DNA from: Olleya sediminilitoris
GTDB lineage: Bacteria; Bacteroidota; Bacteroidia; Flavobacteriales; Flavobacteriaceae
Length of the DNA stretch: 64,000 bases
Reading direction: 5' to 3'
NCBI RefSeq assembly: GCF_016785945.1
Contig: NZ_JAEMEF010000001.1
Coordinates: 186,001 to 250,000 of the forward strand
Shown here: one piece after another, positions 1,779 through 64,000 of the stretch
Numbering within the stretch: position 1 is the first letter of the stretch
Layout: each line of letters begins with the position of its first letter
Position numbers and translations under genes: made by a program
Notes under the pieces: model-generated
Seen by the model: only the letters and a program-made list of their open reading frames with translations
What the model was told of the DNA's origin: nothing
Databases searched by the model: none

Positions 1779-4700
1779 ATGAAGTCAAAGTCGCTATTAT
1801 CCCTAATACTTGTTATTTTTTTTATTGTTTCTTGTAAACAAAAAGAAAGCGAAACCGACAACCTTTTTAAATTTAGAGACTACATCAGTTACACAACGTC
1901 TGGTCGTATATCTGTAGCCGAAAACATTAACATCAATTTAGCTAAAATAGTGGAAGGCTGGGAAGCTGATCAAATTTTAGACAGTGATGTTTTTAAAATT
2001 AGTCCTTATGTTGAGGGGAAAGCAATTGTAATTAATGATCACGCACTACGATTTGTTCCAGACGAAAACTTATCTCCTGACACAGAATATACAGTTACTA
2101 TAGATCTTGGTGAGTTATATAAAGATTTACCTTCAAATTTTAACAAATACACTTTCAATTTTAAAACTATAACACCCAATTTTAATATTGAAACCAATGA
2201 TTTACAATCTTACTCCAAAGAATGGCAATATATTTTAGGAATCGCAAAATCTTCTGATGTAATTACACTTAAACAAGCAAAACAGTTAATAACAGCTTCT
2301 CAAAACGGAAAACAATTAACTATTGAATGGAATGAAAAAAGCACGCCTTCAAAATATTTTGAATTTAAAATAGATAGTATTAACCGTAAAACTGAAGACA
2401 CTGAAATATTAGTAAAATGGGATGGAAAAGCCATAAGTGCAAATCACTCTGGTGAAAACACATTACCAATTCCTGGAAAAAACAATTTTAAGATATTATC
2501 GGTAAATGTGGTTCAATCTCCTGAACAATATTTATCAATAAATTTTTCTGATCCAATTAAAAAACAACAAAATTTTGATGGTTTAGTGACTATTCAAAAT
2601 AGTAAAAATCCAAAATTTATTGTTAATGGTAATGTTTTAAAAGCCTATCCAAACTCAAAAATAACTGGTAATCTTCAGGTAGATGTATTTCAAGGGATAA
2701 AAAACACTGAAGGTTACAAACTTAAAAATTCTTTTAGCGAAACTATTGCTTTTGAAGACATTAAACCAGAAGTTAAACTTGTTAATAGTGGTGTAATTTT
2801 ACCAAACTCTCAAGAATTAAAATTTAATTTTGAAGCAGTTAACTTAAGCGCTGTAGATGTTAGAATTATTAAAATATTTCAAGACAATGTCCTTCAATTT
2901 TTACAAGACAACAATTTACAAAGCAATAACGAACATCAAATAAGACGTGTTGGTCGTCGTATAGCAAAACATACCATTAAATTAATTGAAAACCCATTAC
3001 ATAACGATGGTAAATGGAAAACCTATAGCATAGATCTTTCTAAATACATAAAAGCAGATCCAGGAGCCATTTATCGTGTTGAGTTAGATTACAAAAAAGA
3101 ATACAGCTTATATGATTGTGAAGCTAATGCCAATACAAATAGTAATGATGATGACGAAGACGATTATTATGACGATGAATATTACTATGAAGACGAGTAC
3201 TATTATGATGGTGATTACAGCAATACAAACACAGAAGACGAAGATTTAAAAGAAGAAGAATATTGGGATAACATCACTTACAGTTATCGTAAAGACAATT
3301 ACAACTGGAGAGAACGCAAAAACCCTTGCCATGACTCTTACTACAATTCTAATAAGGTCATATCTCAAAATTTAATAGGCTCTAACTTAGGTGCTATTGT
3401 AAAAAAAGGCACCAACAACACCTACCATTTTGCAATCACTAATATCTTAAACACTAATCCAGAGGCTAGCGCAAAAATAACGTTATATAATTTCCAACAA
3501 CAAGAATTAGCTACCACAAATTCTGATAGCGAAGGCTTAGCAAAACTTACAACCAATAACTTAGCAGCATTTGCTATTATTACTAAAGGCAACAATACTA
3601 CGTATGTAAAATTACGTGATGGTAACTCGTTATCACTTAGTAAATTTGACGTTTCAGGAGCAACATTACAACGTGGACTAAAAGGCTATATTTATACCGA
3701 AAGAGGTGTATGGCGACCAGGTGACTCTATACATTTAACCTTTATGTTAAATGACATTGCTAATAAACTACCAAAAGCACATCCAGTAAAACTTGAAGTC
3801 ACAGATGCAAATGGTAAACTAGCTTACAAAAAAGTAACAACCAATGGTCTTAATAACTTTTTTCAATTTACAATTCCGACTGCTGTCGAAGACAAAACAG
3901 GAAATTGGAATGCTAAAATCAGTGTTGGTGGAGCAAAATTTTACAAAGGACTTAAAGTCGAAACAGTAAAACCAAATAGACTTAAAATTAAAATAGATTT
4001 TGAAGACAAAGTACTACAATCCAATACACCTTTAAACGGAAAACTAGCAGTAAATTGGCTACATGGCGCTCCTGCAAAAAATGTAAAAACCGAAATAAAA
4101 GCAAAATTTAGCACATCATACTCAGGATTTAAAAACTTTCCGGATTATCAATTTAGAGATCCATCCAAAACATTTAGCACTGAAGAAATCACAGTTTTTG
4201 AAGGCAATGTAGATACGGATGGTTTAGCAGATGTGACCAAAAACATTAACATTGGACATGATGCACCAGGTATGTTAAACGCACATTTTTTAGTTCGTGC
4301 TTTTGAAAACGGAGGAGACTTCTCCATGGATGCTTTTACAATGCCATACGCTCCTTACAAATCTTTTGTTGGACTAAAATCACCAAAAGGAAAAGCTTAT
4401 GGTTCATTTTACACAGATCAAAATCACACATTTAACATTGCAACTGTGGACAATCAAGGTAATGCTATTAAGCGTAAAAATCTTGAAATTAAAGTTTACA
4501 AAATAGAATGGCGTTGGTGGTGGAACTCGTCTCGAGATAATTTATCAAAATACACTTCAAGTAGCTACCACAAAACATTTTTAAACAGTAAAGTAACTAC
4601 AAGCAATAATGGTAAAGCTTCATTCAATATAAATGTACCAGACAATCAAGGTGGACGCTACTACATTACTGTTAAAGATCCAGTTTCTGGACACATGACA

Positions 4701-7361
4701 GGACGTACTGCTTATTTTTATAAAAACTGGTGGCAACGTCAACCTTCAGGAGACAAAGAAGCTGCACAAATGTTAGTCTTTTTTGCTGACAAAGACAATT
4801 ACAATGTTGGCGAAACTGCAAAAATAACATTCCCTTCTGGAACTGAAGGTCGTGCTTTAATTAGTATAGAAAATGGATCTGAAGTCCTTCAAACTAAATG
4901 GGTAAAAACACAAAAAGGAGAAACAACTGTAGATGTACCAATCACAAAAGAGATGGCTCCAAATGTGTTTATAAACATTTCATTATTACAACCTCACGCT
5001 TCAACAGCTAATGATTTACCATTACGATTATTTGGTATTATTCCTATTTTAGTCGAAGATCCTAACACAAAATTAGAGCCAGAACTAAAAATGCCCAGCG
5101 TATTACAACCTGAGCAAGAATTTGAAGTTTTTGTTTCCGAAAAAAACAACAAAGCAATGACCTACACAATTGCTATGGTTGAAGAAGGATTGCTAGACCT
5201 TACAAGATTTAAAACACCTAACGCATGGCAATCCTTTTACGCAAGAGAGGCTTTAGGTATAAAAACATGGGATATGTTTGACGATGTTGTTGGCGCTTAC
5301 AGCGGAAGCATTGAGCAAGTATTTGCTATTGGTGGAGACGGAAGCGCAGCCGACGGAAAAAATAAAAAAGCAAACAGATTTAAACCTGTTGTTAAATTTT
5401 TAGGTCCTTTTAAACTAGAAGCAGGACAACGTAAAACACATAAAATAAAATTACCAAATTACGTTGGTGCAGTCAGAACTATGGTTGTCGCTGGTAATAA
5501 CAAGACTGAAGCATATGGTAGTACAGACAAATCTGTGCAAGTTAAAAAACCACTAATGGTATTAGCAACACTACCTAGAAAACTAAGTCCTGGCGAAAAA
5601 GTAACGCTACCTGTTACAGTTTTTGCTATGGAACCAAATGTTAAGAAAGTTTCAGTTAAACTGAAATTAAGTGACGGAATTACTATTGTTGGAGATAGAA
5701 AAAAAACATTATCATTTGCTCGTCCAGATGAGCAAATGGCATATTTTGAATTAGATGTAAGTAAAGCTAAAGGAGTCAATACTGTAGAAGTAATAGCTAA
5801 CGGAAATAGTGAATCATCGTCATATAAAGTTGAAATAGATATAGAAAACGTTAATCCAATTTCATCAAAAAGTTTAGATACTACATTAGAAGCTAACAGT
5901 ACACAAACTATAGATTTCTCAACTTTTGGTGTTACAGGAACAAACAGTGCAAGTGTAGAGTTTTCGACATTACCTCCAATGGACTTTACAAGACGTCTAG
6001 AATATTTAATTCGTTATCCTCATGGCTGTCTAGAACAAACAACGTCTAGTGTATTTCCTCAGTTATTTTTACAAGATATTTTTGATTTACCATTTGATCA
6101 AAAACAAAAAATACAAACTAATATTGAAAACGGAATTAAGCGTTTAAGTCATTTTCAAAGACCAAATGGTGGTATGAGCTATTGGATGGGAGAAAATAGC
6201 GCTAATGATTGGGGAACCAGTTATTCCGGACACTTTTTATTAGAAGCAGAAAAAAAAGGGTTTGTTTTACCGTTAACTTTTAAGAGCAACTGGTTAAAAT
6301 ATCAAAAACAAGCTGCGCAAAATTGGAGACCTAGTTACAAATCCTATAATTCTGATTTAGCACAAGCTTACAGATTATACACCTTAGCTTTAGCTGGTAG
6401 TCCAGATTTAGGAGCAATGAATAGATTACGCGAATTTTCTGAAATTTCTAACGAAGCAAAATGGCGTTTAGCTGCTGCTTATGCTTTAGCTGGTCAAGCT
6501 GGAGCAAGCAACCAAGTATCTAGTACTGCTAATATAAATTTTAAACCTCAAAAATATAATTATTACACCTATGGATCTGTAGACAGAAACAGAGCTATGG
6601 CTTTAGAAACCATGATTTTAACCAAAGACAAACGTGTTAAAAATTTAGCTGAAACTATTGCAGAAGATCTGTCTAGCCAACGCTGGATGAGTACTCAAAC
6701 AACAGCTTATAGTTTATTATCTATGGCTAAAATGGTAAATGCTAATGGAGGTAAAGCTATTAAATTAAGTTACACTGTAAATGGCAAAACTAAAACTATT
6801 GATACTAAAAATGCAATTGCACAACGCGATTTACCTATTAATGAAGGCAATAATACACTAACAATTAAAAACAACAAAGACAACCTGGTTTATGTTCGTG
6901 TTTTAAATTCGGGTAAATTACCATTAGGACAAGAGCTTACAGAACAACGAGGCTTAACCGCTAATGTTACATATAAAGACTTAAAAGGCAACAAGATTGA
7001 TATTAGCAAATTACAACAAGGTCAAGATTTTGTAGCAACTGTGCAAGTTACAAACACAAAAGACTATAGTGTTAATGACGTAGCATTAACACAAATATTT
7101 CCTTCAGGTTGGGAAATTGTAAACACACGCTTTACAGCTTTTGGAAGCTCCACCTCTAGTCAAGCTAGATTTACAGACATTAGAGACGATCGTGTTAATT
7201 TCTACTTTGATTTAGGCCCTAAAAAGACTAATACGTTTAATGTAATGCTTAACGCGTCTTACTTAGGACAGTATTATTTACCAGGTGTTCAAGCTGAGGC
7301 TATGTATGACAACAAGTTTTTAGTACGTAATAAAGGACAATGGATTGAGGTAGAAAAATAA
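1779..7361 (+). CDS. Alpha-2-macroglobulin family lipoprotein with thioester
   Basis: A large envelope protein of 1860 aa that traps proteases and is thought to protect the periplasm. The N-terminus has a lipoprotein signal ending in FIVSC (Cys19). The order is an N-terminal Ig-like domain (about 35-135), several MG domains, a macroglobulin/bait region near residues 1100-1200 (MVEEGLLDL), and an alpha-alpha thioester domain with the complete CLEQ motif at Cys1417 (6027-6029), then C-terminal domains. The length fits bacterial A2M of the YfhM type. An odd acidic, tyrosine-rich stretch lies at about residues 454-500 (3140-3280), mainly D, E and Y. The next gene is pbpC, 36 bp downstream, the same pairing as yfhM-pbpC in Enterobacteria, which suggests a joint role in envelope repair after attack. 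Thioester and lipobox are seen directly; the protease-trap role is family knowledge. Confidence 0.93.
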   Translation: MKSKSLLSLILVIFFIVSCKQKESETDNLFKFRDYISYTTSGRISVAENININLAKIVEGWEADQILDSDVFKISPYVEGKAIVINDHALRFVPDENLSPDTEYTVTIDLGELYKDLPSNFNKYTFNFKTITPNFNIETNDLQSYSKEWQYILGIAKSSDVITLKQAKQLITASQNGKQLTIEWNEKSTPSKYFEFKIDSINRKTEDTEILVKWDGKAISANHSGENTLPIPGKNNFKILSVNVVQSPEQYLSINFSDPIKKQQNFDGLVTIQNSKNPKFIVNGNVLKAYPNSKITGNLQVDVFQGIKNTEGYKLKNSFSETIAFEDIKPEVKLVNSGVILPNSQELKFNFEAVNLSAVDVRIIKIFQDNVLQFLQDNNLQSNNEHQIRRVGRRIAKHTIKLIENPLHNDGKWKTYSIDLSKYIKADPGAIYRVELDYKKEYSLYDCEANANTNSNDDDEDDYYDDEYYYEDEYYYDGDYSNTNTEDEDLKEEEYWDNITYSYRKDNYNWRERKNPCHDSYYNSNKVISQNLIGSNLGAIVKKGTNNTYHFAITNILNTNPEASAKITLYNFQQQELATTNSDSEGLAKLTTNNLAAFAIITKGNNTTYVKLRDGNSLSLSKFDVSGATLQRGLKGYIYTERGVWRPGDSIHLTFMLNDIANKLPKAHPVKLEVTDANGKLAYKKVTTNGLNNFFQFTIPTAVEDKTGNWNAKISVGGAKFYKGLKVETVKPNRLKIKIDFEDKVLQSNTPLNGKLAVNWLHGAPAKNVKTEIKAKFSTSYSGFKNFPDYQFRDPSKTFSTEEITVFEGNVDTDGLADVTKNINIGHDAPGMLNAHFLVRAFENGGDFSMDAFTMPYAPYKSFVGLKSPKGKAYGSFYTDQNHTFNIATVDNQGNAIKRKNLEIKVYKIEWRWWWNSSRDNLSKYTSSSYHKTFLNSKVTTSNNGKASFNINVPDNQGGRYYITVKDPVSGHMTGRTAYFYKNWWQRQPSGDKEAAQMLVFFADKDNYNVGETAKITFPSGTEGRALISIENGSEVLQTKWVKTQKGETTVDVPITKEMAPNVFINISLLQPHASTANDLPLRLFGIIPILVEDPNTKLEPELKMPSVLQPEQEFEVFVSEKNNKAMTYTIAMVEEGLLDLTRFKTPNAWQSFYAREALGIKTWDMFDDVVGAYSGSIEQVFAIGGDGSAADGKNKKANRFKPVVKFLGPFKLEAGQRKTHKIKLPNYVGAVRTMVVAGNNKTEAYGSTDKSVQVKKPLMVLATLPRKLSPGEKVTLPVTVFAMEPNVKKVSVKLKLSDGITIVGDRKKTLSFARPDEQMAYFELDVSKAKGVNTVEVIANGNSESSSYKVEIDIENVNPISSKSLDTTLEANSTQTIDFSTFGVTGTNSASVEFSTLPPMDFTRRLEYLIRYPHGCLEQTTSSVFPQLFLQDIFDLPFDQKQKIQTNIENGIKRLSHFQRPNGGMSYWMGENSANDWGTSYSGHFLLEAEKKGFVLPLTFKSNWLKYQKQAAQNWRPSYKSYNSDLAQAYRLYTLALAGSPDLGAMNRLREFSEISNEAKWRLAAAYALAGQAGASNQVSSTANINFKPQKYNYYTYGSVDRNRAMALETMILTKDKRVKNLAETIAEDLSSQRWMSTQTTAYSLLSMAKMVNANGGKAIKLSYTVNGKTKTIDTKNAIAQRDLPINEGNNTLTIKNNKDNLVYVRVLNSGKLPLGQELTEQRGLTANVTYKDLKGNKIDISKLQQGQDFVATVQVTNTKDYSVNDVALTQIFPSGWEIVNTRFTAFGSSTSSQARFTDIRDDRVNFYFDLGPKKTNTFNVMLNASYLGQYYLPGVQAEAMYDNKFLVRNKGQWIEVEK

Positions 7362-62653: not shown

Positions 62654-64000
62654 TTAAAAATCTTCACGCTCAGCATATTCTAACCCCTCAGGTAATTCGA
62701 TTGAAGAAAATTCTAAATGTAAAACCCGTCTTGATTTCTGAGAGGTTGTTCTTGATGAAGCGTGTAATAAAAAAGGTTTCATTAATTGAACACCTCCTGA
62801 ATTAACTTCACTTAACAAAGGAATTGAATTATTAGAAATCAATTTGATTTCTTCATCAGTCAATCGTTTATTATGTGATCCAGGAATCACTTTTAAAGCA
62901 CCATTTTTAACCGTAACATCATCTAAATGTATACGCATTGCAAACGTATTTTTAGATATTTTTTCAGGAGGACACACACTAACAACACCTTGTTTATTAG
63001 TCCAAGACTTAAAACCATCTACCTCTTTTTTTTCTAAAACATTTATCGGAACATCTTGATGCCAGTTTACATACCAATTGTCATTAGTGGATTTATCAAA
63101 ATAGATTGCTTTTGTTAAAAATGCCTGTTTATCAATGGACTTAATTACTTTTTTAAAATTTTTATTAAATAAAATAGCTTTTATTTCTGGTATCTTTTTA
63201 AGCACCTCACGCATTCCAAAAGAGGCTTCGTCATTAAACTTAAAATAAGCATCAAATTTTGCCTTTAATTTTCTAATGTCTCTTTTTGTATATACATGAT
63301 TTAAAATTCCAAAACCTTTATATTCTAAACGTCTTGCAATAGTCCGTAAATTTTTGTCGCTAATTTCAGTTTCATAAGCATCAACAGCATCATATAACCG
63401 TTCTTTTATATTTCGTTTTAAACGTTCTGGAGCCAAAACTTTGATACCTTCACCTAAACCTAAAATATCTTTTTCTAACTCAAAATTTAACTGAACCATT
63501 AATGATATTGTGACACCATAATTATCACGACTAATTTCTTTTTGCGAGTGATGTAAAGGTTTTGTCAACACATAAGGCGCTTGCTTATGGGTAACATAAA
63601 GCAATACAGTTTCAGGTTTTAAATTTGGACTAACCGACACTCCAATAGCATTATTATAATATGTTTCAGAGTTAAAATTAGTGTCTAAAACAAATTTAAC
63701 ATCGCTTTTATCGACAGACAAAATTCGGTCTAAAGCCAAATTCATAATACCTTCATTTTTATTTCGTCTACCAATAACAAACCATCTATTTCTAAACTCT
63801 TTTAACAAATAAGGATAAAAAATAAACGTGCTTTCACTTCTAGCTTTAAAAGATTGATATGTAATATTTATTGTTTGTTTTTTTTGGATAAATTGATACA
63901 GTGTATCCAAAAACTCTAAGCCTTTTAAATTTTCATTTTTTTCAAAATCAATTAATGATTTTTCATGTGTCTTTTGTGTATAAACATGATCTTCTAACTT
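62654..64000 (-). CDS. WYL-domain protein fused to phytanoyl-CoA dioxygenase-like domain, partial
   Basis: One continuous frame, cut by the right edge; about 448 residues are visible. The first ~180 are a WYL domain and its C-terminal extension (FEKNENLKGLEFLDTLYQ, ITYQSFKARSE, YPYLLKEFRNRWFVIG, ILGLGEGIKVLAPERL). WYL regulators normally have an N-terminal helix-turn-helix, which would lie beyond the edge. The last ~260 are a PhyH-type Fe(II)/2-oxoglutarate dioxygenase: Fe ligands in WHQD (His at 63059-63061, Asp 63053-63055), the distal His in LLHASS (62762-62764), and the Arg pair in KSRRVLHLEF. No stop or frameshift separates them. A plausible reading is a transcription factor that senses or modifies something through its dioxygenase; the ligand is unknown. 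Confidence 0.8.
   Translation of the reverse strand, partial: KLEDHVYTQKTHEKSLIDFEKNENLKGLEFLDTLYQFIQKKQTINITYQSFKARSESTFIFYPYLLKEFRNRWFVIGRRNKNEGIMNLALDRILSVDKSDVKFVLDTNFNSETYYNNAIGVSVSPNLKPETVLLYVTHKQAPYVLTKPLHHSQKEISRDNYGVTISLMVQLNFELEKDILGLGEGIKVLAPERLKRNIKERLYDAVDAYETEISDKNLRTIARRLEYKGFGILNHVYTKRDIRKLKAKFDAYFKFNDEASFGMREVLKKIPEIKAILFNKNFKKVIKSIDKQAFLTKAIYFDKSTNDNWYVNWHQDVPINVLEKKEVDGFKSWTNKQGVVSVCPPEKISKNTFAMRIHLDDVTVKNGALKVIPGSHNKRLTDEEIKLISNNSIPLLSEVNSGGVQLMKPFLLHASSRTTSQKSRRVLHLEFSSIELPEGLEYAEREDF

Follow-up and report, generated by a model that had tools for sequence, protein, structure and literature searches.

A WYL-WCX regulator fused to a PhyH-type oxygenase domain and encoded divergently from a predicted RtcB RNA-repair operon in Bacteroidota

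What does a WYL-type regulator control when it carries, on the same chain, an apparently active Fe(II)/2-oxoglutarate (2OG) oxygenase domain, and what might that domain do there? The question is raised by an open frame at the end of the window, by which the whole 64,000-nucleotide stretch of Olleya sediminilitoris DNA analysed here is meant (NZ_JAEMEF010000001.1, positions 186,001 to 250,000). The frame belongs to an HTH(?)-WYL-WCX-PhyH gene, of which positions 62654..64000 (minus strand) are visible before it leaves the window. An earlier note on this DNA had proposed that the fusion may couple 2OG, oxygen or iron level, or a hydroxylated substrate, to DNA binding. Our best reading of the sequence evidence is that an Fe(II)/2OG oxygenase, once a separate companion, has been taken up into a WYL regulator, and the surroundings of the gene hint at a part for oxygenase chemistry in how the cell answers RNA breakage.

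The gene was followed past the window in locus L002 (window-equivalent coordinate = L002 coordinate + 59999). It is a single 573-aa frame with an ATG start on the minus strand (L002:2655-4376; window 62654 to about 64375), extending 375 bases past the window edge. Its product, P0001, consists in this order of an N-terminal region (residues 1-90; L002:4107-4376, minus), a WYL domain (residues 154-221; 63713..63916, minus), a WCX domain (residues 254-327; 63395..63616, minus) and a PhyH (Fe(II)/2OG oxygenase-like) part (residues 341-573; 62657..63355, minus). That one frame joins WYL to PhyH, as the earlier note had read from the letters, is borne out by the complete gene and by the Pfam matches of the window frame, all of which exceed the curated cut-offs (WYL, 5.1e-12; PhyH, 1.3e-11; WCX, 6.2e-06; PhyH in P0001, 44.9 bits against a cut-off of 22). 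The metal ligands of the HxD...H motif that it reported are likewise present, H439 at 63059-63061, D441 at 63053-63055 and H538 at 62762-62764, as is the presumed 2OG arginine, R549, at 62729-62731 (all minus strand). Among PDB sequences, P0001 matches the WYL structures 7u02 (7.3e-07), 8tp8 (which we take to be DriD; 2.8e-06) and 7p5x (5.1e-04), more weakly 7qfz (presumably BrxR; 0.14) and 6sj9 (0.28), and the PhyH structure 2a1x (E 9.7e-04).

Seven full-length fusions, among them that of the window, turned up in the first 60 genomes. A collection-wide scan gave at least 561 confirmed matches (at least 589 pattern matches), of which the best 80 (loci L080-L159) form a similarity-ranked sample, biased to near relatives, on which the neighbourhood counts below rest. 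WYL and PhyH stand on one chain in 48 of these best 80 loci, 30 have WYL only, and two (L127, L135) encode other long relatives with a C-terminus unrecognised by phmmer. The search across Bacteroidota that the earlier note had advised thus finds the architecture in several families, the named hosts of the best 80 loci being Flavobacteriaceae, Crocinitomicaceae, Saprospiraceae, Hymenobacteraceae, Flammeovirgaceae and other Bacteroidota. In an order-wide search of 395 genomes, related sequences were present in 132 (E up to 1e-20) and a full-length fusion in nine.

All three triad residues, H439, D441 and H538, are present in 37 of the 51 long proteins (P0001 and 50 from the best 80 loci); because the long proteins were selected as open frames, PhyH domains with a broken frame are counted as unfused. 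At least one metal ligand is missing in 14 of the 50 long relatives, 12 with complete C-termini and two cut by contig ends; L114, L117 and L122 keep HxD and have lost the distal histidine, and the other triad-less proteins lose more. The WYL family (PF13280) was found in P0001 and in all intact (36/36) and degenerate (12/12) members scanned, WCX (PF25583) in the same 36/36 and 12/12, and PhyH in 36/36 intact and, at E up to 0.1, 5/12 degenerate members. For nine intact genes (the window's own and eight close relatives; medians of 36 pairs), dN/dS was 0.058 in PhyH versus 0.056 in the rest, rough figures because median dS was 1.95 and 1.66; in these genes purifying selection weighs on the PhyH part as strongly as on the remaining protein. 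Pseudo-PhyH domains gave a dN/dS of 0.13 versus 0.048 in the pair L108/L111, and a dN of 0.51 versus 0.083, with dS saturated, in the pair L117/L122. From the triad counts and the rates, catalysis appears to be held in most sampled lineages, with the domain drifting where it is lost; the 14 triad-less relatives and their faster pseudo-domains imply that catalysis is not essential everywhere.

The metal triad has been lost more than once. In a careful phylogeny built from the WYL part (76 rows, after removal of nine near-duplicate rows and four long outgroups; L127 and L135 sit on long branches), the triad-less state requires seven changes, at least four of them forced by well-supported branches. 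A single loss, with one clade of all 14 triad-less rows, was rejected (AU p 9.8e-05).

Homologs with the two parts as separate genes, which the earlier note would have counted against its idea, do occur; yet wherever this PhyH family was found in the searched genomes it is a single copy, fused or free. At E up to 1e-20 the family is present in 74 of the 395 order genomes, one copy each, nine fused and 65 free. An unfused WYL ortholog (carrier list read by hand from the order-wide search) accompanies the free copy in 60 of its 65 carriers versus 28 of 321 genomes without one (Fisher 2.6e-42, ignoring descent). At the genus level the proportions are 9/10 versus 9/92 (p 1.9e-07; about 102 fusion-free genera, hand-tallied); in genus g80 the free PhyH and the unfused WYL were seen in different genomes, and genera g32 and g48 dominate the co-occurrence, which outside both stands at 10 of 15 genomes. 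Among the genomes of the best 80 loci, a free copy (E up to 1e-10) was found in 0/29 with an intact fusion (29 of 36 loci searched) versus 10/30 with an unfused regulator (p 0.0008), and in 1/14 triad-less ones; the matches in G439 (triad-less) and G465 (unfused) lie close to a contig end. A single copy, fused or free, in the searched genomes points to a shared pathway rather than accident. The distribution is what would be seen for a companion enzyme that may become joined to the regulator, though shared ancestry could mimic it.

Divergent from the window's regulator lies a set of genes that is situated beyond the window edge and was therefore outside the view of the earlier note. It comprises prfH (L002:4847-5575, plus; TIGR03072, 225.5 bits against a cut-off of 166.65), a TPR-like protein (L002:5581-6132, plus; weak TPR matches under the cut-offs), tRNA-Tyr(GTA) (L002:6282-6365, plus), a tRNA-like, weakly YrlA-like RNA (up to about L002:6661; YrlA 28.5 bits against a gathering threshold of 69), a Band 7 gene that we take to be a slipin (L002:7057-8157, plus), DUF6331 (L002:8289-8612, plus) and an RtcB family gene (L002:8596-9999, plus; PF01139 7e-37, far under the NCBIfam cut-offs). 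A PrfH equivalog (TIGR03072) and an RtcB-family gene (PF01139) are accordingly close to each other on L002. No similar second copy of the tRNA-Tyr was found in its own genome (E 0.01). Several T-arm-like tRNA fragments follow it (L002:6282-6700), and weak YrlA (Y RNA) matches were also seen in L083, L095 and L126. A Flavo-1 sRNA match lies between the slipin gene and DUF6331 on the strand opposite the operon (L002:8187-8269), with further matches in L095 and L083. PADLOC, run on six proteins, returned only weak matches besides WYL models: P0001 matched WYL models, Cas3c via its WYL part and DpdJ (0.0083); the slipin, PDC-S64 (0.002); RtcB, Csn2 (0.0017).

The conserved neighbours that the earlier note had suggested looking for prove to include RtcB, which phmmer (E up to 1e-5) placed opposite the regulator's strand in 67 of the best 80 loci: 40/48 fusions, 2/2 other long relatives and 25/30 unfused regulators, or, where at least 8.9 kb upstream was available, 32/35, 1/1 and 20/23. 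Sorted by triad, it accompanies 33/36 intact and 9/14 triad-less proteins. Of the 13 loci in which RtcB was not found, seven have less than 5 kb upstream, and six (L094, L113, L125, L130, L153, L159) have about 10 kb. Among fusions, other long relatives and unfused regulators of the same 80 loci, slipin is found at 24 of 48, 2 of 2 and 9 of 30, TPR at 24 of 48, 0 of 2 and 11 of 30, and PrfH at 8 of 48, 0 of 2 and 7 of 30; no second PhyH or WYL gene was detected in any of them (phmmer, E up to 1e-5). At least one operon-strand tRNA gene lies upstream in 17/36 intact, 3/14 triad-less and 11/30 unfused loci, and arrays of six or more, with a maximum of 19, in 4 intact, 0 triad-less and 6 unfused loci; these arrays are apparently spare tRNAs. 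The largest, with 11 to 19 operon-strand tRNA genes upstream of the WYL gene, were seen in L094, L147, L090, L149, L133, L138 and L148. Two types of RtcB, 28% identical, occur in these operons (L002:8596-9999; L033:4297-5688). Farther away, L039 (55% identical) has slipin and no RtcB match in the fetched stretch, and the distant WYL homologs L043, L044, L048, L049 and L050 (28-39% identical) likewise gave no RtcB match in theirs.

The promoters of these loci contain a 19-bp palindrome, TACGCA-N7-TGCGTA, with 49 exact copies in the best 80 loci (1.44 Mb), against a mean of 0.025 and a maximum of 1 in 40 shuffled-arm controls with the same spacer; spacers of 3-11 other than 7 gave 0 or 1 copy. 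With at most one mismatch it is present in 32/36 intact, 11/14 triad-less and 27/30 unfused loci, and within 400 bp upstream of the WYL start in 30/48 fused, 1/2 other and 19/30 unfused loci, where it mostly stops about 40 bp ahead of the start codon. It recurs before other units of the operon, rtcB included. In operon direction, TTTG stands at offset +32 in 39/49 near and 65/70 far sites; taken by us as the -7 element of Bacteroidota promoters (TAnnTTTG), it would put the palindrome over the -33 region, which fits a repressor, and an activator is possible too. L002 has an exact copy at 4417-4435, without TTTG at +32, and a second operator with one mismatch at 6140-6158, which has TTTG. Searched with up to three mismatches, the L002 19-mer finds two sites in its own genome, both within the regulator locus, against four matches of a reversed-pattern control, a count so near noise that weight comes only from both sites lying in the locus; the scan is blind to sites whose 7-base centre differs. 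At 23 loci of free PhyH genes (L045, L046, L047, L168-L187), no such palindrome was found with up to one mismatch, nor any neighbour common to more than four, close kin aside.

The palindrome is the likely DNA site of the WYL regulator, as predicted from its placement and recurrence. Its reader would be the N-terminal region, where the earlier note had advised testing for an HTH past position 64000. What lies there is a strongly conserved stretch of about 130 residues (1-130) ahead of the WYL domain, in which HTH_11 is matched weakly in 3/36 intact (best E 0.038) and 2/12 degenerate members; in P0001 itself Pfam names no domain in the N-terminal region and gives no confident HTH, and the Pfam scan finds neither CARF nor sigma54 AAA+. 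From the N-terminal position and the palindromic operator we infer a winged HTH. Since regulators with intact PhyH, without triad and without PhyH mostly keep operator and operon, the oxygenase seems unneeded for DNA targeting. PhyH would be an optional module, which regulators may acquire or drop while staying functional. Of the coupling put forward in the earlier note, a WYL domain fused to an apparently active oxygenase domain stands, together with a likely DNA site. An obligate coupling has evidence against it: PhyH is absent from the regulator in 30 of the best 80 loci and at least one metal ligand from 14 of 50 long relatives, with the operator in 27/30 and 11/14 of these and a divergent RtcB in 25/30 and 9/14.

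Between regulator and operon, L002 contains two further elements. A second, 17-bp palindrome, (A/T)TAATAC-N3-GTATTA(T/A), at L002:4497-4513 has one copy in each of 24 loci out of the 85 looked at; these 24 are closely related to the window's gene, whereas L102, a near relative as well, lacks the element. Both outer bases change together. As the mark of a wide regulon it was rejected, its own genome containing one exact copy and six more at two mismatches versus six for the control. In 19 leader-bearing loci it lies about 100-145 bases upstream of a leader ORF, a spacing that holds even where the leader sits kilobases from the WYL gene. This ORF of 24-25 codons (L002:4625-4699, plus), followed by an intrinsic terminator (L002:4726-4767, plus), precedes the prfH/TPR/RtcB operon in 20 loci (duplicates dropped; L035 and L087 remain one genome); no other match below E 1e-3 was found in its own genome. 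GCTTCG at nucleotide 57 of the ORF, within the Leu codon CTT in 20/20, is invariant and complementary to the 5' arm of the terminator. Folding of 19 leaders (L091 did not fit the search pattern) gave scores of -10.3 to -15.0 kcal/mol for the terminator and of -11.6 to -19.2 kcal/mol for the competing hairpin. Inspected by eye, the stem of the terminator has compensatory changes; the antiterminator pairs are invariant and so offer no covariation proof. The element looks like a translation-sensing, ribosome-mediated attenuator with a mutually exclusive antiterminator, in which a ribosome stalling early in the leader would leave GCTTCG free.

In sequence terms, the protein is a WYL-WCX regulator whose gene diverges from those for RtcB, PrfH, TPR, slipin and tRNAs, with a conserved palindrome at their promoters. 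We think it somewhat probable that it is the WYL regulator of an RNA-damage regulon, with the oxygenase as trigger enzyme on the same chain. Broken tRNA or rRNA would yield breakdown products sensed by the WYL part; their binding would change the state of the palindrome and so bring about ligation by RtcB, PrfH-dependent release from broken ribosomes and tRNA replacement; the leader attenuator might add a second check, on translation. The least certain step is that PhyH would be a working Fe(II)/2OG oxygenase serving the same response, modifying the regulator's ligand or a nearby RNA or translation substrate, so that enzyme and switch form one unit. We suggest only tentatively that it makes, edits or clears the RNA signal read by WYL, or that damaged RNA or the ribosome supplies the substrate that it oxidises; the fused form would act in cis, the free form of relatives in trans. 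The free single PhyH beside unfused regulators favours a trigger enzyme over a pure sensor domain.

Other accounts of the PhyH part have to be weighed against this. It might be a metabolic gate, in line with the idea of the earlier note, that binds Fe(II), 2OG and oxygen, reshapes the regulator and tunes the repair operon to oxygen, iron or 2OG. The full triad in 37/51 proteins, the strong purifying selection and the place of PhyH on the regulator itself speak for such a gate, but regulators that are unfused or triad-less mostly keep operator and operon, and in the 65 of 395 genomes where the family is free the protein could not gate the regulator in cis; we think a gate improbable. Alternatively, PhyH might serve mainly for oligomerisation or ligand binding, with catalysis incidental, as an eroding or structural domain. 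Such a role would suit the 14/50 relatives with at least one ligand missing, the rejection of one clade and the complete C-terminal part kept by 12 of them; it is made unlikely by a triad invariant in 37/51, the window's gene included, by a PhyH dN/dS in close relatives as low as that of the WYL part and by pseudo-domains that drift faster.

An independent enzyme merely co-expressed with the regulator and giving it no input, with RNA, a small molecule or a component of the ribosome as substrate, would explain why free homologs occur once per matched genome and why an intact fusion never shared a searched genome with a free copy, since a fused form that takes the place of the free one would lead to such exclusion. 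The free genes, however, have neither operator nor common neighbourhood, and regulators, being usually scarce, would presumably make a poor supply of enzyme; we count this account as possible, though doubtful. Chance fusion or an assembly artefact without function is wildly improbable, with 48 of the best 80 loci drawn from many public assemblies and a PhyH dN/dS of 0.058; on the same grounds, and with seven fusions in 60 genomes, the sequencing artefact at the junction that the earlier note had allowed for is ruled out.

RtcB repair operons are widespread, and few regulators were found described besides RtcR and TrcR. Bacteroidota gain a candidate regulator with a defined predicted operator and regulon that is directly testable, and an orphan PhyH oxygenase family is putatively linked to RNA repair. 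The repeated loss of the triad, or of the whole PhyH, provides natural contrasts with which catalysis might be told apart from regulation. Were the oxygenase indeed a chemical step of RNA-damage signalling, RNA repair would depend on oxygen, iron and 2OG.

Several known systems resemble parts of this locus. WYL proteins are described as nucleic-acid sensors in sections of PMC11804915, PMC10693628 and PMC12340889, and BrxR as binding inverted repeats in the main text of PMC9122601, where the terms RtcB, RNA repair and dioxygenase are absent. BrxR, PafBC and DriD share the WYL plus WCX type with the window's regulator; they control DNA-damage or phage-defence genes, whereas the latter sits on an RNA-repair operon and carries PhyH. 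The main text of PMC4012209 lists Cas3, exoRNase, REase, HNH and further enzymes as fusion partners of WYL domains; the word dioxygenase does not appear in it. No paper pairing 'WYL domain' with 'phytanoyl-CoA dioxygenase' was found, and an earlier mention of the fusion or of a WYL RNA-repair regulator is possible. Neighbourhoods of prfH and RtcB with an added TPR gene have already been described in the main text of PMC6514570, where WYL does not occur; RtcB2-PrfH protects from colicin E3, rescuing damaged ribosomes [according to part of PMC9223846], and RtcB seals 2',3'-cyclic phosphate or 3'-phosphate ends [according to part of PMC7824862]. RtcR, a CARF-sigma54 activator of rtcBA, controls an RtcB operon that includes Y RNA genes, and tRNA halves bearing 2',3'-cyclic phosphate activate it [as given in sections of PMC7790460]; like the window's regulator it is tied to an RtcB operon, whereas P0001 is without CARF or AAA+ domain. 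TrcR, a ribbon-helix-helix repressor of Anabaena, acts on rtcB, on a gene for a slipin and on an operon of 26 tRNAs [as given in sections of PMC10272220, in which WYL does not occur]; its regulon, as set out there, is strikingly parallel, and its DNA-binding family differs from the WYL regulator. The phytanoyl-CoA dioxygenase family (PF05721; PDB 2a1x) has a sequence match and the HxD...H motif in common with P0001, the PhyH part of which, unlike phytanoyl-CoA dioxygenase, is fused to a regulator.
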